Shown here: piece by piece, positions 52,744-61,797 of the stretch
Layout: each line of letters opens with the position of its first letter
Position numbering within the stretch: position 1 is the first letter of the stretch
Assembly (NCBI RefSeq): GCF_005952805.1
Contig: NZ_CP040709.1
Span: 1,612,001 to 1,676,000, forward strand
Direction of reading: 5' to 3'
DNA length: 64,000 nt
DNA from: Inhella inkyongensis
Lineage (GTDB): Bacteria; Pseudomonadota; Gammaproteobacteria; Burkholderiales; Burkholderiaceae_C
Made by a program: the position numbers and the translations under genes
The notes under the pieces: generated by a model
Databases searched by the model: none
Told to the model about the DNA's origin: nothing
The model's input: the letters and a program-made list of their open reading frames with translations, nothing else

Positions 52744-53778
52744 ATGACCGCTCCCGAATCCAGCCTTCCCAATTCGCACAGCGCCGCGCCGCCTTTGCCC
52801 GCGGTGTTTGAGCTTTGCCATGCCGGCGTGGTGCTGCGGGCCTTGTTGGGCGTGCAGGGCGTGCTGGCCCTGATGCTGGCGCTGCAATATGACCGTCCGG
52901 AGCGCTGGTGGCAGCAGCTCTTGGAAGCCAGCGCCGTCAGCGTGCCGGCCTTGCTGGGCTGGTTGTTGGTGGTCTGTGGGCTGAAGCTGCAACTGGCCGT
53001 CTGGCCCATGCTGCGGGTGCGGCTGGCGTTGCTCAGCCTGGGTGCCTTTTGTGCCTGGATGCCGTGGTGGCTGGGAGCGCAAATGCAAGCCATGCTGGAT
53101 CAGCAGCCCGCCAGCCCCTGGCGCGGGGTGGTGATCGCAGTGGCCGGTGCCACGGCAGCCGCCTTCTTGCTGCAGTGGATCCTGCTGCGTGCCCGGGCGC
53201 AGACGCCGCAGGGCATGCAGGCGCGCTGGGTGGAGTTGCAGTCGCGCATCCGCCCGCACTTTCTTTTCAACACCCTGAACACGGCGGTGGCCTTGGTACG
53301 GGTGGAACCCCGCCAGGCCGAGCGCGTGCTCGAAGATCTGGGCGAGCTTTTCCAGGCCGCGCTCAGTGCGCCCGATTGGGTTAGCACGGTGGGCGAAGAG
53401 ATTGGCCTGGCGCGTCGCTATCTGGACATTGAACAATTGCGCTTTGGTGAGCGCTTGCGGCTCCAGTGGCAGCTGGACCCGGCCTGCGACCATGCCCGCC
53501 TGCCGCCCCTGCTGCTGCAGCCCCTGGTGGAAAACGCCGTGCGCTATGGCGTTGAGCCCAATGAGGGCGGGGGCGAAGTGCTGGTGCGCACTCGCCGGCA
53601 GGGCGGCATGGTGGAACTGGTGGTGCGCAACAGCCTGGGTGCCGCTGCAGCCGGTGGGCACGGGCTGGCACTGAACAATGTGCGCGAACGATTGAATCTG
53701 CTGCACGACCTGGATTGCCGCTTCGAGCTGGAGCCTGAGCCTGAGCGCTTTACCGTGCGCATCACCTTGCCCCTTTGA
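52744..53778 (+). CDS. algZ: LytS/AlgZ-type sensor histidine kinase
   Basis: 344 residues. Four hydrophobic segments at 30-160 (the AlgZ-type membrane domain), then the His_kinase domain: SRIRPHFLFNTLNTAVALVRVEP (the phosphorylated His), LLLQPLVENAVRYGVEP (N box) and a GHGLALNNVRERLNLLH. It pairs with the following LytTR regulator. In relatives this pair controls envelope, pili or alginate genes. Confidence 0.93.
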   Translation: MTAPESSLPNSHSAAPPLPAVFELCHAGVVLRALLGVQGVLALMLALQYDRPERWWQQLLEASAVSVPALLGWLLVVCGLKLQLAVWPMLRVRLALLSLGAFCAWMPWWLGAQMQAMLDQQPASPWRGVVIAVAGATAAAFLLQWILLRARAQTPQGMQARWVELQSRIRPHFLFNTLNTAVALVRVEPRQAERVLEDLGELFQAALSAPDWVSTVGEEIGLARRYLDIEQLRFGERLRLQWQLDPACDHARLPPLLLQPLVENAVRYGVEPNEGGGEVLVRTRRQGGMVELVVRNSLGAAAAGGHGLALNNVRERLNLLHDLDCRFELEPEPERFTVRITLPL

Positions 53779-53791
53779 ACTTGCTTGCCCC

Positions 53792-54610
53792 ATGCTGACC
53801 CAAGCCCCGATGAAGGTATTGATCGTCGATGACGAGCCGCTAGCCCGTGCACGGCTCAAGGCCCTGTTGCAGGAGTGCCGCGACCCGCATGCCGAGGTGA
53901 TGGCGGATGTGGGCACCGCCTCGGCCGCCCAGGCCTGGCTGCGTGAACATGCCTGTGACCTGGTGCTGCTGGATGTCCAGATGCCCGGCCCAGACGGCTT
54001 GATGCTGGCCGACAGTTTGCGCAACCGATCCGGCGGCGTGCCTGCACCCCTGGTGGTGTTTGTGACCGCCCATGCTCGGCATGCGCTGGAGGCCTTCGAG
54101 TTGGACGCCGTGGACTATCTGACGAAGCCCTTGCGGCTGGAGCGCCTGCAGGCCACCCTGCAGCGTGTGGCCCAGCGCCTGCGCGAACGCGAAGCGGCAC
54201 AGAGTGCCGAGCCGGCGCAGGAAGGCGAGGTGCTGAGCATCTTCGAGCGTGGCCGTGTGGTGCGGGTGCCCTTGAGCGAGGTGCTCTATATGAAGGCCGA
54301 GCTCAAGTATCTGACCGTGCGCACCGCCCAGCAGCGCTATGTGATGGACGGTACTCTGGGCGATTGGGAGCAGCGCCTGGCGGGCCGCTTTTTGCGCGTG
54401 CACCGCAATGCGCTGGTGGCCAAGGCCGCCGTACGCGAGCTGGATCGCCATGGGCTGGAGAGCGAAGCCCAGGGCACCGACTTCGCGGCCCTGGATGCCG
54501 AAGGCAACGAGAGCTGGGCCGTGCGGATTGCCGTCGTCAACGAGTGGTTGACGGTGTCGCGCCGTCAGTTGGGCGCGGTGCGCGAGGCCCTGAAGGCGCA
54601 GGCCGGCTGA
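53792..54610 (+). CDS. algR: LytTR response regulator AlgR-like
   Basis: 272 residues. Receiver domain (MKVLIVDDEPLARARLKALLQE, phospho-acceptor Asp in DLVLLDVQMPGPDGLML, DAVDYLTKPLRLERL), then a LytTR DNA-binding domain (VLYMKAELKYLTVRTAQQRYVMDGTL, RFLRVHRNALVAKAAV). Start at ATG 53792 or 53810. The next gene is normally hemC in this gene order, but here a cassette of three unusual genes follows. Confidence 0.93.
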   Translation: MLTQAPMKVLIVDDEPLARARLKALLQECRDPHAEVMADVGTASAAQAWLREHACDLVLLDVQMPGPDGLMLADSLRNRSGGVPAPLVVFVTAHARHALEAFELDAVDYLTKPLRLERLQATLQRVAQRLREREAAQSAEPAQEGEVLSIFERGRVVRVPLSEVLYMKAELKYLTVRTAQQRYVMDGTLGDWEQRLAGRFLRVHRNALVAKAAVRELDRHGLESEAQGTDFAALDAEGNESWAVRIAVVNEWLTVSRRQLGAVREALKAQAG

Positions 54611-54710: not shown

Positions 54711-56447
54711 ATGGCGGTCGATCAGGAGCTTGATCAGGCGGTTGAGGACACGGCCACTTGGCAGTCGCAGGGCGCCGTGCTGGTGTTGGAGGCCGACATC
54801 CGCCACGCTGCGCCGCCCCTGAAGGTGCAGCTGCAGATGCAGCGCGCGGCCGAGCTGTTGCAGCAGCTGCTTGACTCGCCCCCCAAGGTCCTGGAGCTTC
54901 CGGCCAACGAGTATCAGCTTGGACTCACCGCGCAGCCTGGCCAGGCCTTGATTGAGGCCGCGCAGCGTTTGGGTCAGGCCTTGCACCCCGATTCCGACCT
55001 GCGATTTCGCATCGGTGTGGCGGGCGTGCACGATGCCCGCTCGCCCAAACCCGAGGAGCTGCGGCGTGCCCATATGGCCGCTGATGCCGCAGGGGTCGGG
55101 CGGATCGGTCTTGAGGCCGAGGTATTGGATGGACACCCGCGCGATTGGAGCCTGGGCAGTGTCGATTTGGGTCGCCTGGCCGAGGGGCTCAATTTGCGTG
55201 TGTTTGCGCTGCCGCTGCAGGCGCCTGCCCCTGCACCCAGCTGCGCGCCATCCTTGCAGGGCGTATTGGCGGTGTTGCCGCCACAGATCGGCGGGCTGGA
55301 TTCGCGGCGCGCCTTGGTGGGCGCGTTGGTGGCCGATCTGCTCTATGTGGCGCTGTCGCGTTCGGCCCTGCTGCGGGTGTTGTCGCCCGACAGCACGCAG
55401 CGTCTGCGCGACGGCCGCAGCGCCGTGCAGGATGCCTTTGACGCCCTGGGTGCCAGTCATGTACTGAGCGGGCGCGGCAGCCTGGGCGTGGGAGGAGCCT
55501 TGAACGTCGACTTGCAGCTGAGTGCGCGCGGCTCGGCCCAGCCCTGCTGGAGCGAGCGCCTGCAGTTGCATGTGGAAGACCTGCTGCTGGGTGAATGCGA
55601 GCCCCTGAGCCGCGCTGCGGCCCATGTGCATGCGGTGTTGGCCAATGCCTCGTTAGAACCCAGTCGCGGCGCCCAATGGGGCGAGCTGGCGCATTTCCAA
55701 CTGTTGAGTGCGGCCTCGCAGTGGATGCATCGACTGTCGCCGGATGCCTTGGACCGTTCACGGATGTTGCTGGATGCCCTGCTGCAACGGCAGATTGACG
55801 CCGCCATGGTCTGGGCTTGGTCGGCGAAGTGGCACGTCATGGCTTGTGTTCAGGGGTATCAGCCCGTAGCCCACGCAGCGCTGCGAGCGCAGCAGGACTG
55901 CGAACGGGCGCTGGCCCTGGATCCGCATTGCGCCTTGGCTCTGACCCTGCGAGGTTATGTGGCCAATATGGTGGGCGAAGACTTGGCAGCGGCAGCACGA
56001 TGGCAGGCACTGGCGCTGGCCGCCAACCCTAGTGAGGCACTGGGGTGGTTGTTTGGTGCTTTGCAGTCAGTTTTTGAAGGTGAACTGGCGCTGGCGCGCG
56101 AACGCGTCACTGTGGCATTGGCCCTGTCGCCTTTGGATCCCTGGCGCTACCTATTCCTGGACATCGCTGCCCATGTGCGCCTGGCCTCGGGACATGTCGA
56201 TGAGGCGCTGGATTTGGTGCAGCAGGCGTTGCAGTTGCGCGCCCAGCATGCACCCTCACTGGCCAATCTGGTGCTGGCTTTGGGCCTGCTGGGGCGTTTG
56301 GATGAAGCCGGCGATGCCGCGCGTCGTCTGTTGCGCCTGTGGCCGCAATACAGCGTGGCACGATTTCAAGCGGCCTATCCGGGCCGTGATTGCGGGCATA
56401 TGCAGGCTTTCGTGGGCGCCTTGCGTGCCGCAGGGTTGCCGGAGTGA
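54711..56447 (+). CDS. Degenerate cyclase-TolB-TPR signalling protein of unknown role
   Basis: 578 residues, no signal peptide or clear membrane segment. Residues 1-165 follow the layout of a class III nucleotide cyclase domain (LRFRIGVAGVHDARSPKPEELRRAHMAADAAG, then SVDLGRLAEGLNLRVFAL) without the metal-binding aspartates, so it is probably inactive. Residues ~175-320 resemble the TolB N-terminal-like domain that often follows such cyclases (LQGVLAVLPPQIGG, GALVADLLYVALSRSALLRVLS). Residues ~330-570 form TPR repeats (CERALALDPHCALALTLRGYVANM, ALQLRAQHAPSLANLVLALGLLGRLDEA). It may be a scaffold that binds partner proteins. ATG 54711 has GAGGGG before it. First gene of a three-gene cassette. 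Confidence 0.7.
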   Translation: MAVDQELDQAVEDTATWQSQGAVLVLEADIRHAAPPLKVQLQMQRAAELLQQLLDSPPKVLELPANEYQLGLTAQPGQALIEAAQRLGQALHPDSDLRFRIGVAGVHDARSPKPEELRRAHMAADAAGVGRIGLEAEVLDGHPRDWSLGSVDLGRLAEGLNLRVFALPLQAPAPAPSCAPSLQGVLAVLPPQIGGLDSRRALVGALVADLLYVALSRSALLRVLSPDSTQRLRDGRSAVQDAFDALGASHVLSGRGSLGVGGALNVDLQLSARGSAQPCWSERLQLHVEDLLLGECEPLSRAAAHVHAVLANASLEPSRGAQWGELAHFQLLSAASQWMHRLSPDALDRSRMLLDALLQRQIDAAMVWAWSAKWHVMACVQGYQPVAHAALRAQQDCERALALDPHCALALTLRGYVANMVGEDLAAAARWQALALAANPSEALGWLFGALQSVFEGELALARERVTVALALSPLDPWRYLFLDIAAHVRLASGHVDEALDLVQQALQLRAQHAPSLANLVLALGLLGRLDEAGDAARRLLRLWPQYSVARFQAAYPGRDCGHMQAFVGALRAAGLPE

Positions 56448-56485
56448 AGGGCAGCGGTCGCTGACCGCACGAAGAGGAGGCATCG

Positions 56486-57595
56486 ATGTCTGAATCTGGA
56501 GCTTTGCAAAGCCTGGCCAGCCTTTGGCCCAGGGCCAGTTTGTGGCCCAGGGCCAGCTTATGGCCGCGCGCCAGCCTTTGGCCGCGCGCTAGCCTTTGGC
56601 CTCGTGATGCCGAAGGCTCGGGCGCGAGCATCGACCTCGCCGCGTTGCGCGGCAGTCTGGTGCAGGATCTGGGGCAGGGGCCACGCAGCGTCGAGGTGCC
56701 CCTGGTTGGCACTGCCAATCTGATGCAGTGGGCGGGTTCGGCGCGCGCCCAGTCCTTGCTGCTCGAATCCCTGGGCGGGCTGCGCGTGCGCAGCGACGAG
56801 AAGCTGGGTTGTGCCTGGGTCGAGCGCCTGGTCGAAGTTGCTGGTCGATTGGAGTGGCGGTCGCTGTGCAAACTCTATCGCCCACCGCAGGCCTATTTCC
56901 GCGCCCAGATCGCGCTGGTCGATGCCCAGCTGCCATTGCGCGAGAGCCGGGCCTATGAACTGCAGGCCCAGGCCGACGCCGCCATCGAGTATTTCTTTGC
57001 CCTGCTGCAGTGGGGCCCCGGGCAGCGCCCGCATTCTCAGGAATTCCTGGCCCTGGCCCTGGCGCAACTGCAGTCTGTTCAGATGCGTCTGAAGCAAATG
57101 CTGGCCTGCCCGCGCCCGCATCGCTTGCAGCCGCGGCTGATCCCGTTTCTCGATGTGCCCGGGCATGGCAGCCTGCCCAGTGGCCATGGGGGGGAATCAC
57201 ATCTGGTGGCGGCCCTGCTGGGGCATTGGTTGGGCCTGTCCGGTGCTCGGCCCGAAGAACAAGCCATGCTGGAGCGATTGGCATTGCGCATTGCCGAGAA
57301 CCGGGTGGTGGCGGGCCTGCATTACCCGATCGACAACGTGGCTGGGCGCCTGCTGGGCGAGACCCTGTTTCGCCATTGGCTGGCGGTGTTGGAGCGCCAG
57401 CCTGTGCAGCAAACCCGCTTCGGCAGCGAAGGGGATTGGCAGGCTGAGCTGGCGCAGCCCGAGCAAGGGGCACCGCAGGAGGGCCAGTCGCCCCTGGCCC
57501 ATAGGCTCTGTGCGGTCGAGTCCGATTCCGTGCCAGCCAACCCCATGCCCGACCATGCCGAGCTCTGGCGTCTGGCCTGCGCTGAATGGCGATGA
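56486..57595 (+). CDS. PAP2-type phosphatase (vanadium haloperoxidase-related) with WPRASL repeats
   Basis: 369 residues. The phosphatase signature is complete: KQMLACPRP (K203-X6-R210-P211), PSGHG (231-235) with the catalytic His, and NRVVAGLHYPID (N272-R273...H279-X3-D283), where the usual Ser is Asn. Such enzymes remove phosphate from lipids or small phosphate esters, or act as haloperoxidases. The N-terminus has five perfect ASLWPR hexamers (residues 11-40). No signal peptide and no membrane helices are seen, so it is likely cytoplasmic, unlike most PAP2 proteins. ATG 56486 follows AGGAGG. It overlaps the next gene by an ATGA. Confidence 0.82.
   Translation: MSESGALQSLASLWPRASLWPRASLWPRASLWPRASLWPRDAEGSGASIDLAALRGSLVQDLGQGPRSVEVPLVGTANLMQWAGSARAQSLLLESLGGLRVRSDEKLGCAWVERLVEVAGRLEWRSLCKLYRPPQAYFRAQIALVDAQLPLRESRAYELQAQADAAIEYFFALLQWGPGQRPHSQEFLALALAQLQSVQMRLKQMLACPRPHRLQPRLIPFLDVPGHGSLPSGHGGESHLVAALLGHWLGLSGARPEEQAMLERLALRIAENRVVAGLHYPIDNVAGRLLGETLFRHWLAVLERQPVQQTRFGSEGDWQAELAQPEQGAPQEGQSPLAHRLCAVESDSVPANPMPDHAELWRLACAEWR
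56516..56605 (+). repeat. Five 18-bp repeats coding ASLWPR
   Basis: Five in-frame units of 18 bp at the start of the PAP2-type gene, each coding Ala-Ser-Leu-Trp-Pro-Arg. The DNA units differ by several silent bases, so the repeat is kept at the protein level rather than being a fresh slippage product. Confidence 0.92.
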
Positions 57596-59454
57596 GTCGC
57601 CCTCAATGGCTGGCGCCCCAAGAAGCGCGCCCCGGCGACCCCTATCTGCAGTGGGCTCAGGCCTGTGAGTGGACAGGGCTGAGTTTGGGGCCGGGAACGC
57701 ATTTGAGCTTCCTGGTGCGCCGGCGCTCGGGCGACAACTGGGCGCAGCTGCAAAAAAGCCTGCCCAGTGCTGCGCGCCTGCGCCCACCCGCGAAGCAGGG
57801 CGCCCTGCACGCGAGCCTGGATTGCCCGGTGGGGGACCTGCCCGCCGTGATGGCGCAGTTCGAGTGGGTGGAGCTGGCGCAGCCCCTGCAGCCCTATGCG
57901 CCGCAGGCCTTGCCTGCTTTCAATGAGGCGGCTCCAGACCTGGTGATCGGCGTGATCGACCAAGGCGGCGCGCCGCTGCAGCGCTGTTTTGGCGATCCGG
58001 ATCGGCCCGGCCAGACACGGTTGCGATCCTTCTGGGATCAGTCCGAGGCACCGACCGGCGCTGACTGGCGTGCGGCGCCTGCAGGCTATGGCCGGGTGCT
58101 GGATGGTGAAACCCTGAATCGCCTTTATGCGCAGAGCCCCGACGCGCGTAGCGAGTTGAATTGCTACCGAGAACTCGGGCTGATGGATCTGGTCGAGGCC
58201 GCCACGGCCGGCCGCCCCGACCATGCCACCCATGTGCTCGATACCCTGGCCGGGCTGCCGGCGCCAATGCCGGCTGCGGCGGCGGCCAAGCCCGCCCGGT
58301 TGGATCACGCCGCCCGGGCTGCCCTGGTGCTGGTTTCGGTGCCGGCCACGCCGGCGCGACAGAGCACCGGCACGGCGTCGCTGGCGCAGCTGTTGGACGC
58401 GATGGAATTCGTGTTGCAGCAGGCCCAGGCCCTGGCGCCCAGAGCCCCGGTGCTGATCAATCTGAGCCTGGGGGTGCAGGCCGGTCCGCATGACGGGACG
58501 ATGGCCATTGAGCGGGCCATCGACGACATGATGCGCATGCATCCCCAACTGCTGGTGCTGATGGCGGCCGGCAATCGCAGCGCGCAGGCCATGAATGCCA
58601 GCGGCCGCCTGAGCTCGCAGCACAGCGTTGAGGCGCCGGCCCGGCTGGCTTGGCGGCTGCAGCCCCAGGATCCCAGCGACAGCTTTCTGGAGCTGTGGTG
58701 GCGCGCCCCCAGCCGAGAGGCCGCCCAGGCCCTGCGCTGGCGCGTCTGCCCGCCGGGGTCCGAGCCTTCGGCCTGGTTGGCGCCGGGCCAGGTGCAGACC
58801 TGGGCCGCTGGCAGCCGACCCCTGGCGTGCGCCTGGGCCGAGCCCGGCTTGGGCCTGCGCGGCCGGGCGCTGCTGGCCTTGGCGCCGGTGCTGGGTGCGC
58901 GCGGCGGCGTACCGGCGGGCCCGTGGTGGATCGAACTGGCGCTGGCTGGCTCCAGCGCTGAGTTGCGACTTGATGCCTGGGTGCAGGGCGACCAGCCGCG
59001 GCTGCATCTTGGGGCGCCGGTGCAGTCCTATCTGGAGGCCGCCATCGGCCTGGGCCTGGAGGCCGGCGGCAGCCTGAATGCTCTGGCCACTGGCGGACTG
59101 CCGCTGGTGGTGGGTGCGGCCACGGCCGATGAGGGACGGCCCAGCGTTTACGCGGCGCGCAGCCCACACGCGGCCGAAGTTCAGGCCCTGGGTGCGGCTG
59201 ATGAATCGGTCTTCGCGCCAGGTCTGCTGGCCGCTGGGCCGCTGTCAGGCCAATGGATGCGCATGGCGGGCTCCAGCGTGGCCACCCCGGTGGTGGCGCG
59301 GCATTGGGCCAATGCCTTGGCCGAAGGGTTGCGTTTGCCGGTGCGCAATGCGGCGGCTTGGCGCCACGGCCAGCGCGCGCATGGAAACTCCGGGGTTTGG
59401 CGCCCGGGTCGGCCCAGCGGACTTGAAGGGCTGCTTGGCGCCTCGGCTTCCTGA
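57592..59454 (+). CDS. Subtilisin-like serine protease (S8)
   Basis: 620 residues. The S8 triad is in order: Asp123 in VIGVIDQGG, His211 in DHATHV, Asn328 in AAGN (oxyanion), Ser562 in GSSVATPVVA. About 230 residues lie between the Asn and Ser sites, longer than in secreted subtilisins. There is no signal peptide or obvious propeptide, so it may act inside the cell on a specific protein. The ATG overlaps the PAP2 stop (ATGA), so the two are co-translated. The substrate is unknown. Confidence 0.85.
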   Translation: MSRPQWLAPQEARPGDPYLQWAQACEWTGLSLGPGTHLSFLVRRRSGDNWAQLQKSLPSAARLRPPAKQGALHASLDCPVGDLPAVMAQFEWVELAQPLQPYAPQALPAFNEAAPDLVIGVIDQGGAPLQRCFGDPDRPGQTRLRSFWDQSEAPTGADWRAAPAGYGRVLDGETLNRLYAQSPDARSELNCYRELGLMDLVEAATAGRPDHATHVLDTLAGLPAPMPAAAAAKPARLDHAARAALVLVSVPATPARQSTGTASLAQLLDAMEFVLQQAQALAPRAPVLINLSLGVQAGPHDGTMAIERAIDDMMRMHPQLLVLMAAGNRSAQAMNASGRLSSQHSVEAPARLAWRLQPQDPSDSFLELWWRAPSREAAQALRWRVCPPGSEPSAWLAPGQVQTWAAGSRPLACAWAEPGLGLRGRALLALAPVLGARGGVPAGPWWIELALAGSSAELRLDAWVQGDQPRLHLGAPVQSYLEAAIGLGLEAGGSLNALATGGLPLVVGAATADEGRPSVYAARSPHAAEVQALGAADESVFAPGLLAAGPLSGQWMRMAGSSVATPVVARHWANALAEGLRLPVRNAAAWRHGQRAHGNSGVWRPGRPSGLEGLLGASAS

Positions 59455-59466
59455 GGTCTTGAGTCC

Positions 59467-59898
59467 ATGCGCATTGGTGAATTGGCGGCCGCGGCCGCCA
59501 CCGGGGCTGACACCATCCGGTTCTACGAACGCGAGGGTCTGATGGCGGCCCCTCCACGCAGCGCCGCCAATTACCGCCGCTACGGCCCGGAGCATCTGCA
59601 GCGCCTGCGCTTGATTCGCCATGCCCGCTCGCTCGGGCTGTCGTTGGACGAGGTGCGTGCGCTGCTGAGGGCTTTGGACCAGCCCGCCAGCCATCATGTA
59701 GATGCCTTGGTGGACCAGCACCTGGCCCATGTGCGCGCGCGCATCCAGGAGCTGCAGGCGCTGGAGCAAAGTCTGCTGGCGCTACGCACCCAGTGCGAGG
59801 GTGGCAGGGATGCCTGCGGCATCCTGGCCGGCCTGCAGCGTGCCGCCACCGAATCCGGCGGAGTGCCGGGGCCGGTGGTGGATGGCTTGCATCCTTAG
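59467..59898 (+). CDS. MerR-family regulator (CadR/PbrR-like)
   Basis: 143 residues: MRIGELAAAAATGADTIRFYEREGLM (HTH), SANYRRYGPEHLQRLRLIRHARSLGLSLDEVRALL, a dimerization helix, and a C-terminal metal loop CEGGRDACGIL. This fits the Cd/Pb-responsive MerR group with the C-terminal Cys pair, but the first metal-binding cysteine expected at about residue 77 is replaced (PASHHVDALVD, with two His). Metal response therefore needs checking. No heavy-metal pump lies next to it. Its stop overlaps the 3-prime end of the M56 gene by 4 bases. Confidence 0.88.
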   Translation: MRIGELAAAAATGADTIRFYEREGLMAAPPRSAANYRRYGPEHLQRLRLIRHARSLGLSLDEVRALLRALDQPASHHVDALVDQHLAHVRARIQELQALEQSLLALRTQCEGGRDACGILAGLQRAATESGGVPGPVVDGLHP

Positions 59899-61433
59899 GG
59901 TGTGATGCGGCGGGGCGTCAATTCGATGCGCACCAGGCGGGGATCCTCGGGGCTGTTGAACTCCAGGGTGGCGCGTTGTCCGTTCTTGGCGATCAGGCGC
60001 GGCTTCATGCTGCGGCCGTTGATGCTCCCTTCAAACGCCAGGCCGACGCCATCGCCCGAATAGGCCTGGGCCTTCAGTTGGCCGAGCAGGTCAAATTGCG
60101 GCCCGCCCAGCGTGAGCGTCTGCGCCTCGCCAAGCTGCAGCTTGATCTCAGCCTGAGCGGCCTGTTTGTCGTCCACAAATGCGACCAGGCTCAGCGCCAC
60201 GCTGCCGCGTTGGTCGGGGTCCAGGATCGGTGCCGGTGCGGCGCGATGGATGGCCAGGACGAGCTTTCGGCTGCGTTCATTGGGGTTGTCAATGGCCAGT
60301 TGAAGCGGCTGACCCAGCTGCACGATTCCTTCGCCTTCTGACGATGTGTTGGTGGGGAAGCCCAGATTCAGATGCGCCTGGACGCGGTGGCTGTCCTTGG
60401 CCTGCGCCTGGGCCTTCAGCGTGACGAGCAGAGGCTGGCTGTCGTCGAAGGCCTTGAGGCGGACCGATGCGCCGGTCTTGGGGTCAATGGACAGCACTTG
60501 CTGGTCCAGCCGGCGGTCACCGGCCCAGGTTTCCAGCACGAACTGCGGCGCGGCGGCGGACTGCGTCTTGGCGGGCTCCGCCGGAGCACCCCGTTGCGGG
60601 CTCATGGCCCAAGCCGCGCCGCCCAGGAGCAGGGCGCTGAGCAGGGCGATCCAGGGGCGGGCGACACGGGCTTGCTGGGACTTGAGCATGCGAATCCTTT
60701 CGATCAGGGGATGGGGGGCGAAGGCGCTGAAGGGCAGGGCATCCAGACCGGGCTGGGCCTTGGCCAGCGCTCGCAGATAGCGGCCGGTTTGGTCGGGATG
60801 CCGTCGCAAGACCTGGGCATCGGCGGCCAGCTCTTGGTCGCCGCGAAGGCGGTGCAGTGCCCACCAGGCCAAGGGGTTGAACCATTGGCTCAGCCACCAC
60901 AGGGTTGCCAGCAGGTTCCAGAGGTTGTCGGCCCGCTGGGCATGCACGCGTTCGTGGGCCAGGATCAAGCGACGCTCTGCCGGTTCAAAGCGATGGCGAA
61001 AGTCGGCCGGCAGCCAGAGCCGGGCACGCCACAAACCCACCCAGGCGGGGCTATGGCCGGCCGGCAGGCGACGCTGGCGCAGTTGGCGCGCGAAGCGTGC
61101 ATGGCGCGTCAACAGCAGCAGCGCGAACGCCGCAACACCGGTGGCCCATAGTGGCAGCCAGGGCATACCTGCTGCCGGGGTGGCGGTCAGCCACGCGCGC
61201 GGCGCCGCGCTCAGCTCATCCACACGCAGCACCAGCAGGGGCTCGGCAGGTGCCTGCGGCATGTCGGGGAGTAGAGGGGCCAGTGCCACGACGGCCAAGA
61301 CCAGCGGCAGCGAACCCCATGCGCCATAAAGCGCCGCCGGACCACCGAGGCGCAGCAGGAGGGGGCGCATCAGCGCCAGGGCCAGCACCGTGGCACTCGA
61401 GGCCAACGTCAACAGGGTGAGCGTGTCACTCAT
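59895..61433 (-). CDS. M56 family membrane metalloprotease (BlaR1-like)
   Basis: 512 residues. Membrane segments at the N-terminus (SATVLALALMRPLLLRL, LPLVLAVVALAPLL, ATGVAAFALLLLTRH), then the zinc motif RLILAHERVHAQRADN (HExxH type) and WLSQWFNPLAWWALHRLRGDQELAADA, typical of BlaR1/MecR1. The following helix LLSALLLGGAAWAM crosses the membrane again, and the periplasmic C-terminus (about 220 residues) is a beta-rich region without the penicillin-binding sensor of BlaR1. It may sense another ligand and degrade BlaI. Starts at ATG 61433, overlapping the blaI stop. Confidence 0.88.
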   Translation of the reverse strand: MSDTLTLLTLASSATVLALALMRPLLLRLGGPAALYGAWGSLPLVLAVVALAPLLPDMPQAPAEPLLVLRVDELSAAPRAWLTATPAAGMPWLPLWATGVAAFALLLLTRHARFARQLRQRRLPAGHSPAWVGLWRARLWLPADFRHRFEPAERRLILAHERVHAQRADNLWNLLATLWWLSQWFNPLAWWALHRLRGDQELAADAQVLRRHPDQTGRYLRALAKAQPGLDALPFSAFAPHPLIERIRMLKSQQARVARPWIALLSALLLGGAAWAMSPQRGAPAEPAKTQSAAAPQFVLETWAGDRRLDQQVLSIDPKTGASVRLKAFDDSQPLLVTLKAQAQAKDSHRVQAHLNLGFPTNTSSEGEGIVQLGQPLQLAIDNPNERSRKLVLAIHRAAPAPILDPDQRGSVALSLVAFVDDKQAAQAEIKLQLGEAQTLTLGGPQFDLLGQLKAQAYSGDGVGLAFEGSINGRSMKPRLIAKNGQRATLEFNSPEDPRLVRIELTPRRITP

Positions 61434-61797
61434 GGTCTTGCTGATCCAAGAGTTTGCGCAAGGCCGCGCGATCGGCCGCGCTGAGCTTGCGCTGGCTGCT
61501 GAACTGCGCCACCAGGGGTGCGAGCTGGCCGCCAAACAGGCGATCGAGCAAGCTGATGCTCTGGCTGCCTACCCAGTCCTCGCGCGCCAGCAAAGGGCGG
61601 TAAAGGTAGCGTCGGCCGTCCTTGTCGGCGGCGATGGCACCCTTGTTGAGCAGGCGGTTGAGCAGGGTTTTGATGGTGGCGAGCTGCCAATCCTGCTGGC
61701 CCGCCAGGGCGGCGGCGATGTCGTCGGCCGACTGCGGTGCGCGCTGCCACAGCAGCTCCATCACCTGGGCTTCGGCCTCACTGATGCTGGGTTTCAT
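61426..61797 (-). CDS. BlaI/MecI-family repressor
   Basis: 123 residues with the winged HTH of the family (ISEAEAQVMELLWQRAPQSADDIAAALAGQQDWQLATIKTLLNRLLNKGAIAADKDGRRYLYRPLL). It represses its own operon and is cleaved by the M56 protease. Two operator-like dyads lie just upstream. No beta-lactamase gene is next to it, so the real target is unclear; the serine hydrolase at 21-22 kb is far away. Confidence 0.93.
   Translation of the reverse strand: MKPSISEAEAQVMELLWQRAPQSADDIAAALAGQQDWQLATIKTLLNRLLNKGAIAADKDGRRYLYRPLLAREDWVGSQSISLLDRLFGGQLAPLVAQFSSQRKLSAADRAALRKLLDQQDHE

Follow-up and report, generated by a model that had tools for sequence, protein, structure and literature searches.

A three-gene cassette of a TPR protein (G1), a soluble PAP2 enzyme (G2) and an S8 subtilase (G3) is conserved in the family of Inhella inkyongensis and in many alphaproteobacteria and is not a coincidence of neighboring genes; it looks like an undescribed switch. 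The genes are co-conserved, the active sites of G2 and G3 are intact, and G2 carries a tail, predicted to be disordered, whose repeat is under selection. Because both enzymes are intact and no account of the trio turned up, it is a tractable target for a new signaling or effector pathway. The tail is an exact peptide kept under selection while its DNA is de-repeated and its unit is swapped wholesale across lineages; a role for repeated peptides in cells as addresses, handles or signals thereby becomes directly testable.

The cassette and its three proteins

In the window, the 64,000-nucleotide stretch of the I. inkyongensis genome analyzed here, three forward-strand ORFs lie where a sequence-only reading had placed them: G1 at 54,711-56,447 (578 aa; assigned from Pfam, alignment and model), G2 at 56,486-57,595 (369 aa; Pfam PAP2 and motifs) and G3 at 57,592-59,454 (620 aa; Pfam Peptidase_S8 and triad). 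The G2 stop and the G3 start share the ATGA seen in that reading; G3 has an alternative start at 57,586. On the same strand, Pfam identifies a histidine kinase and a LytTR response regulator upstream (52,744..54,610) and a MerR-family regulator 12 bp after G3 (59,467..59,898). The kinase has no relative among other trio contexts, the LytTR regulator has only receiver-level relatives, at 3 loci of the other contexts examined, and the MerR-family regulator has one in a single other context (L038).

Of 52 same-family contexts examined, 42 hold all three genes side by side, as do 78 of the 80 alphaproteobacterial loci that a G2 search brought up; coincidental neighbors are ruled out. Scattering in relatives, named earlier as grounds for dismissing the cassette, was looked for and did not occur, a few S8-less loci aside. 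Across these 120 loci (42 same-family plus 78 alphaproteobacterial), gene order is fixed, and in 118 the three genes all point the same way; the G1, G2 and G3 distances between loci correlate with one another at 0.89-0.95 (114 loci). Of 143 relatives, 63 were not kept for the analyzed set. A class-wide draw of 369 genomes yielded only 5 at E ≤ 1e-15, including 2 known beforehand, and the spread beyond the family comes from other searches. The spread is patchy, with some copies on large plasmids; the hosts include many soil and sea bacteria. Five loci (L075-L078, L082) hold G1 and G2 without a nearby S8 gene, and four of them also lack the G2 tail, which L075 keeps. S8 relatives in Rhizobium (L093, L096, L098) stand in other contexts, with no PAP2 protein annotated or among the ORFs tried. 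The earlier suggestion of an undescribed system thus holds as far as a genuine conserved trio is concerned, one that joins a TPR protein to a PAP2 enzyme and an S8 protease, both intact; the three-gene system is probably undescribed, a search of the open-access literature in PMC having found no description of it.

G2 matches Pfam PAP2 (E 3.2e-9) and contains the superfamily pattern K-x6-RP ... PSGH ... (S/N)R-x5-H-x3-D as K203-x6-R210-P211, PSGH (231-234) and N272-R273-x5-H279-x3-D283; all three motifs are present at 117 of 120 loci (pattern match, PSAH allowed). It is a soluble PAP2 hydrolase, possibly haloperoxidase-like. G3 matches Pfam Peptidase_S8 (E 1.4e-8) and has all its catalytic residues, D123, H211 and S562, as well as the oxyanion N328, which a long insert separates from S562; among 113 aligned sequences the triad reads D in 110 (E in 3), H in 113 and S in 113. 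CspB-type germination proteases (9sj6, 4i0w) are the closest solved relatives of the G3 profile. By eye rather than by a predictor, neither G2, whose N-terminus is the peptide repeat, nor G3 has a hydrophobic signal-like N-terminus, in keeping with the soluble enzyme and cytoplasmic protease proposed from the sequence.

G1 is more plastic: unlike the near-invariant active sites of G2 and G3, its front domain is not conserved. Pfam returns weak matches for the window copy, mostly to TPR (best E 7.7e-4). By our reading of the model and the alignment, a class III cyclase domain in degenerate form (residues 17-170 or so) is followed by a TolB/CadC-like middle (about 184-295) and a TPR superhelix (about 328-573). 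The degenerate cyclase described earlier is corroborated by its homologs: Guanylate_cyc is found by Pfam in 18 of 27, and many beta relatives retain in the alignment the GDG and NxAAR motifs missing from the window copy. The label of a cyclase-like scaffold fits the window G1 and does not extend to the alphaproteobacterial proteins, in which the cyclase slot looks like a winged-helix domain. The TolB-like part is suggested by our alignment reading and by the periplasmic domain of CadC, a weak hit in structural comparison (rank 38, E 2.8e-5).

The tandem peptide tail of G2

The "unusual repeat" noticed in the window G2 is real: (ASLWPR)x5 occupies residues 11-40 (56,516..56,605, forward strand), with pLDDT below 50, i.e., predicted disorder. 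What had been passed over is its conservation: an N-terminal perfect tandem peptide tract is present in G2 at 114 of 120 loci, compared with 1 of 244 called genes from random regions. The tails use 43 different units (e.g., SLWPRA, GGF, TGT, QGD) with periods of 2-9, the majority being GGX in which a single residue is hydrophobic or aromatic. The unit is replaced wholesale from lineage to lineage, and units within one tail are identical. Two loci with the full trio, L048 and L072, have no recognizable tail.

Selection acts on the repeat as a peptide, because the amino acids repeat exactly and the codons behind them are mixed beyond shuffle expectation. Synonymous codons change from unit to unit in the window tract; over all tails, 1977 of 2750 degenerate codon pairs in adjacent units differ, against 1794 ± 20.5 in shuffles and above every one of 500 shuffles, which rules out a DNA slippage artefact as the origin of the repeat. 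Seven tracts with near-uniform codons (fraction below 0.2; L037, L039, L040, L069, L073, L171, L180) look recently expanded. Annotation may have hidden the tail: the one public record checked, P0035, starts partway into the tail encoded at its locus, L114, and many other records appear to start near where a tail would end.

A possible switch and its alternatives

We tentatively favor, at well short of even confidence, an intracellular switch in which a TPR-tethered PAP2 enzyme is released or destroyed by the protease. G1 would be the sensor and regulator, a TPR superhelix with an exchangeable N-terminal output (cyclase, winged-helix-like or degenerate), and G2 the enzyme, a soluble PAP2 hydrolase with a long unstructured tail of exact repeats. 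The tail could serve as a multivalent handle by which the G1 TPR domain would hold G2 parked; upon a signal, G3 might cut the tail or G1, and G2 would be freed or destroyed all at once, in whichever direction the cut acts. The substrate, the stimulus and the role of such a switch we can only infer. Counter to this switch, the TPR signal described below is modest and not concentrated in the groove, L048 and L072 are tail-less and L075 is S8-less. A related proposal, possible though doubtful, is that the tail acts as a barcode at the protein level: the identity of units within a tail, rather than their sequence, would be selected, and a cognate TPR domain would read the tail. Each lineage would then hold a private enzyme-sensor pair, units would turn over in concert, codon scrambling would stop the DNA from slipping, and the module would possess a previously unknown insulated, evolvable address for signaling or effector functions.

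Changes of unit coincide with substitutions in the G1 TPR domain (mean z 0.60 vs. a null of 0.25 ± 0.13; matched or exceeded in 3 of 400 null runs), a modest signal from an exploratory test of five groups; no coincidence is seen with substitutions in G3 or the G2 core (119/400 and 64/400 null runs as high, respectively). The TPR domain is the strongest group within the alphas (26/300) and within the betas (4/300), yet every group is raised in the latter (4-31/300); G3 stands at 291/300 in alphas and 24/300 in betas. In partial Mantel tests on four sets, three show a tie of the unit to the G2 core no weaker than that to G1; with G3, r is 0.028 (all, 46/500), -0.002 (alpha), -0.040 (alpha GGX) and -0.116 (beta), a signal that the gappier G3 alignment may weaken. 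Contact through the concave TPR groove was looked for and not seen: 7 of 87 columns in the concave A helices have z > 2, compared with 13 of 100 in the B helices (Mann-Whitney p 0.52), whereas direct binding in the groove should concentrate the signal in the A helices. Matching of the TPR domain to the tail is suggested.

These patterns bear unequally on other uses of the tail. That the repeat polymerizes or condenses G2 in a silk-like or polyglycine-II-like manner, with G1 and G3 as regulators, is rather unlikely: GGX with a hydrophobic or aromatic residue is indeed the commonest tail, exact repeats allow register shifts and the Collagen model matches 2 of 28 G2s, but TSD, SHS, HAA, ANT, QGD and SLWPRA, at periods of 2-9, share no fiber geometry known to us, and assembly offers no reason for TPR co-variation. 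Such co-variation, the adjoining subtilase gene, and units that are identical within a protein and turn over across lineages would suit a multi-copy precursor, cut by G3 into identical peptides that the TPR domain would read in the manner of RRNPP receptors, with DNA binding (alphas) or a cyclase (betas) as the output; this is improbable, since small-residue units of 2-3 residues (SM, GGA, GGV) hold little information and the conserved PAP2 active site is left unexplained. In 9 beta contexts an MFS permease (Pfam MFS_1, Acatn; AmpG-like by our reading) lies no more than 3 kb from the cassette, which would speak for such a peptide signal, but eight of the nine are relatives at about 68-70% identity and are more simply read as shared synteny. 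The least probable use is an array of G3 cleavage sites, one per unit, with many cuts giving all-or-none release. Subtilisins usually prefer a hydrophobic P1 residue, many units end in one and the tail is predicted to be disordered, but the unit should then track G3, and its identity hardly does so by either test.

An antiphage module, in which sensing activates G3 and G3 in turn activates G2 as a toxic hydrolase, is likewise unlikely, although patchy spread and plasmid copies would fit. The immunity link drawn earlier is not supported. At E ≤ 0.1, PADLOC gives the window copies of the three proteins nothing beyond a weak, S8-only match to IetS (E 0.003). Up to 7 of 27 G1 proteins weakly match the Pycsar cyclase (PycC) model, which mainly indicates a class III cyclase. 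Matches beside the trio are nominally more numerous, including PycTIR, TIR and PycC models (best 1.2e-14) and one type IIG-like protein: 15 defense-model families (1-3 of 108 proteins each) vs. 8 in random regions (1-2 of 108 each), a small difference without statistics, several of the 15 being a single protein. The comparison took 108 proteins per set, out of 239 and 208 eligible ones from our own simple gene caller, and no clear defense-island enrichment emerges. Recurrent beta neighbors are PAS-LuxR regulators, cNMP-binding proteins and the MFS permease. A phage or prophage gene was rejected as an origin: the window G2 matches no phage record, and a G2 profile (A5) finds one weak relative among 73 candidate stretches of viral contigs.

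Comparison with known systems

In peptidase-containing NTP-dependent conflict systems, peptidases, cNMP cyclases and S8 domains recur, according to parts of their description (eLife 2020, PMC7159879); its main text uses "pap2" 0 times, and those parts present no such repeat tail. Many beta G1s share with Pycsar a cyclase domain of class III, with weak PycC matches, but the window cyclase is degenerate and without a PADLOC match, and the alphas show none. Pycsar consists of PycC and an adjacent cNMP-binding effector (TIR or TM); here there is no cNMP effector, G2 and G3 being PAP2 and S8 proteins, and cNMP-binding genes adjoin some beta loci only. IetAS defense combines an S8 protease with an AAA ATPase. 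G3 and IetS are both S8, but their match spans only 56 residues (E 0.003), and no AAA ATPase is found in the cassette or among the four recurrent neighbors given to Pfam.

RRNPP regulators are TPR peptide receptors that read Phr-type peptides from a small secreted propeptide. G1 resembles them in its TPR domain and, in alphas, a probable DNA-binding output, and differs in the TolB-like middle domain; the repeats are carried by the PAP2 enzyme, and among the called genes, all of 80 aa or more, no separate secreted propeptide is seen. G2 shares motif residues and core fold with class A acid phosphatases and the PAP2 superfamily (7f17, PhoC, PhoN), vanadium haloperoxidases being more distant relatives. 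Class A acid phosphatases are secreted and have a signal peptide, whereas G2 has no signal-like N-terminus on inspection, a tandem-peptide tail and conserved gene partners. Csp subtilases carry a jelly roll insert. G3 shares with the CspB type the triad and a long insert between Asn and Ser, and finds its best matches there (9sj6, 4i0w); its hosts are proteobacteria, which we take not to be spore formers, and it is constantly accompanied by a TPR protein and a PAP2 enzyme.

A three-gene set that travels together

The sequence-only reading placed three adjoining plus-strand genes at 54711-59454, encoding a TPR protein (G1, 54711-56447), a PAP2 protein (G2, 56486-57595) and an S8 subtilase (G3, 57592-59454), with an ATGA overlap joining G2 to G3; both the placement and the overlap hold, and the trio is found side by side in other genomes. 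G3 is single-copy in its own genome (one contig, 4.08 Mb), where its sole match is itself. Of 299 same-family genomes searched with G2, 81 have matches at E <= 1e-3, many of the matches being generic PAP2 proteins; 51 contexts (47 strong and 4 weak G2 matches) and the window make up the beta set, labelled after its named close relatives (Inhella, Paucibacter and other Burkholderiales), and 42 of these 52 contexts hold G1, G2 and G3 together, each above 100 bits in its own profile. The ten incomplete contexts are the weak matches (L079-L082, the last with G1 and G2 present and no S8 gene), two truncated at contig ends (L058, L064), and L075-L078, in which G1 and G2 are present and S8 was not found. 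A closer G2 alignment, run against named genomes, yielded the alpha set, the best 80 of 143 relatives, all alphaproteobacteria by record titles; 78 of the 80 carry the complete trio, a figure that gauges linkage, not frequency, because the set was picked by likeness to cassette G2s.

Beyond the family, plasmids of Paraburkholderia, Microvirga, Bosea and Pontibrevibacter carry the trio, with G1 reversed relative to the other two genes in Pontibrevibacter, and on a Caballeronia plasmid an S8 match is adjoined by a repeat-tailed ORF and a G1-like ORF. Two more distant loci of the window's class (L088, L089) encode a dipeptide-repeat PAP2 protein near a TPR protein, and the G3 profile has no match there. 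All three genes share one orientation in 118 of the 120 complete loci, G1 being divergent in L180 and L181, and median gaps are 23 bp for G1-G2 and 1 bp for G2-G3 (first possible start). Pairwise distances of G1, G2 and G3 correlate at 0.925, 0.887 and 0.948 across the 114 tailed loci; thus, the trio travels together. One alphaproteobacterial contig (L182:5779-16675) has two trios facing each other, their tails different.

The N-terminal repeat of the PAP2 protein

G2 begins with a perfect tandem peptide tract in 114 of the 120 loci, starting at about residue 5 in most G2s (some called ORFs begin further upstream); in the window, residues 1-50 are disordered in the predicted structure. Up to rotation there are 43 distinct units, mostly GGX in the alphas (X = F, L, I, V, T, Q among others), with non-GGX units including SLWPRA (window), SGGY, TGT, QGD, NGA, SHS, HAA, TSD and GGHSAGI. 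A perfect tract is missing from six loci: L038 and L070, whose repeats are imperfect; L048; L072; L074, with broken genes; and L166, in which the tract is out of frame and G1 is split. When the first 150 residues were screened with a nearly identical detector, tracts appeared in 1/244 called genes from 38 random regions, 4/250 G1/G3 ORFs, 6/530 beta-context neighbour genes (five lysine-alanine-proline rich) and 1/595 alpha neighbours, this last being the second G2 copy of L182.

At L055:10515-12593 and L057:10049-12472, a G1 ORF (RGPM x4.5) and a G3 ORF (LH x17), as called, also start with repeats, which may be upstream extensions. The public record P0035 begins partway through the repeat tail that its own gene encodes (L114:7896-9032), and many further G2 records start close to where the tail would end. 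Three imperfect WERRKSRF copies open the record P0018, which is a distant class A acid phosphatase.

In perfect tracts, to which the codon test was confined so that amino-acid differences are excluded by construction, 1977 of 2750 degenerate codon pairs of adjacent units differ while the peptide is exact; 500 codon shuffles within each repeat column gave 1794 +/- 20.5 differing pairs, with a maximum of 1856. Synonymous change has accumulated to this extent with no change of amino acid; therefore, the peptide repeat is selected for and the DNA repeat against. The unit changes 64 times on a tree of 114 leaves, where 200 shuffles gave a mean of 84.9 and a minimum of 79: the unit turns over quickly, yet it is inherited.

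Conserved enzymes, a variable TPR protein and their neighbours

Pfam identifies the window's G2 as a PAP2 protein and G3 as an S8 subtilase, and matches TPRs weakly in G1. All three PAP2 motif blocks are present in G2 of 117/120 loci, and the G3 triad and oxyanion Asn are near-invariant (D 110 plus E 3, H 113, N 114, S 113, in up to 114 sequences). G1 consists of an output module followed by a TolB/CadC-like region and TPRs; structure matches of the window's model (mean pLDDT 86) are to TPR superhelices, with a weak one to the CadC periplasmic domain. Many beta loci have a class III cyclase as output module (Pfam match in 18/27), degenerate in the window, L032, L033, L034 and L072, and in our reading of the sequence that of the alphas looks like a winged-helix/SARP domain; in the two alpha G1s submitted to it (L099, L100) Pfam finds nothing but TPRs, and in the distant L088 it finds BTAD. 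Both enzymes are thus kept intact, whereas the G1 output module is not fixed. G3 relatives on plasmids of Rhizobium indicum (L093) and Rhizobium sp. TH2 (L096) have no annotated PAP2 and lie among kinases, PP2C and an SduA-domain protein, or else a CHAT-domain protein; they may represent another S8-based cassette.

Near the trio, a PAS-LuxR regulator gene recurs in 20 beta loci (BLAST; L042-L082, e.g., L062:6239-7051) and a cNMP-binding gene, probably Crp/Fnr-like, in at least seven by direct BLAST; a looser cluster of 14 loci includes one FAD/Fe-S oxidoreductase. In loci such as L049 and L062, these genes lie past the G3 3' end in convergent orientation, and in loci such as L059 and L067 they are found upstream of G1. 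An MFS permease, AmpG-like in our reading, lies 0.2-2.9 kb from the trio in nine beta contexts (L059:2559-4247 and relatives in eight others). All three neighbours may reflect shared synteny. Neither the kinase/LytTR pair nor the MerR gene flanking the window's trio recurs as such in the other contexts. A BlaR1-like M56 peptidase and BlaI-like repressor pair, ordinary by Pfam, adjoins the window's trio (59895-61797).

A possible TPR-tail switch and its alternatives

Partial Mantel tests (r, with permutations as high out of 500) gave 0.047 (21), 0.066 (1) and 0.028 (46) for G1, G2 and G3 over all loci; 0.054 (26), 0.072 (2) and -0.002 (272) in alphas; 0.139 (0), 0.035 (45) and -0.040 (469) in alpha GGX loci; and 0.139 (0), 0.141 (1) and -0.116 (496) in betas. 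The unit is thus associated with G1 and G2, not G3, whose gappier alignment makes distances noisier and may weaken its signal. Substitutions coinciding with unit changes are raised in G1 TPR columns (0.60 vs null 0.25 +/- 0.13, 3/400; 23 columns above z 2 vs 8.1) and not clearly in the N-terminal domain (50/400), TolB (50/400), G2 core (64/400) or G3 (119/400). TPR columns rank top in alphas alone (26/300; other groups 194-291) and in betas alone (4/300; others close, 10-31). Inside the TPR, the concave A helices show no concentration of the signal. We take these associations as suggestive, short of proof.

For a trio with intact active sites and a selected tail predicted to be disordered, we propose that the G1 TPR would hold G2 through the repeat tail, and that cutting by G3 would end this held state; we infer both contact and cut, as well as the direction of the switch, its substrate and its signal. 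Alternatively, the tail could be a peptide precursor, an assembly tail or an array of protease sites, or the trio as a whole an antiphage effector. At E <= 1e-10, PADLOC hits fall into 15 families among 108 trio neighbours and 8 among 108 random-region proteins, six of the 15 being a single type IIG-like protein beside L055.

Searches of an open-access library found no description of the trio or its tail, and on that scope their novelty is provisional. Among known proteins, the G2 PAP2 core is nearest to class A acid phosphatases, by structure match and profile search, and the closest solved relatives of G3 are CspB-type proteases.
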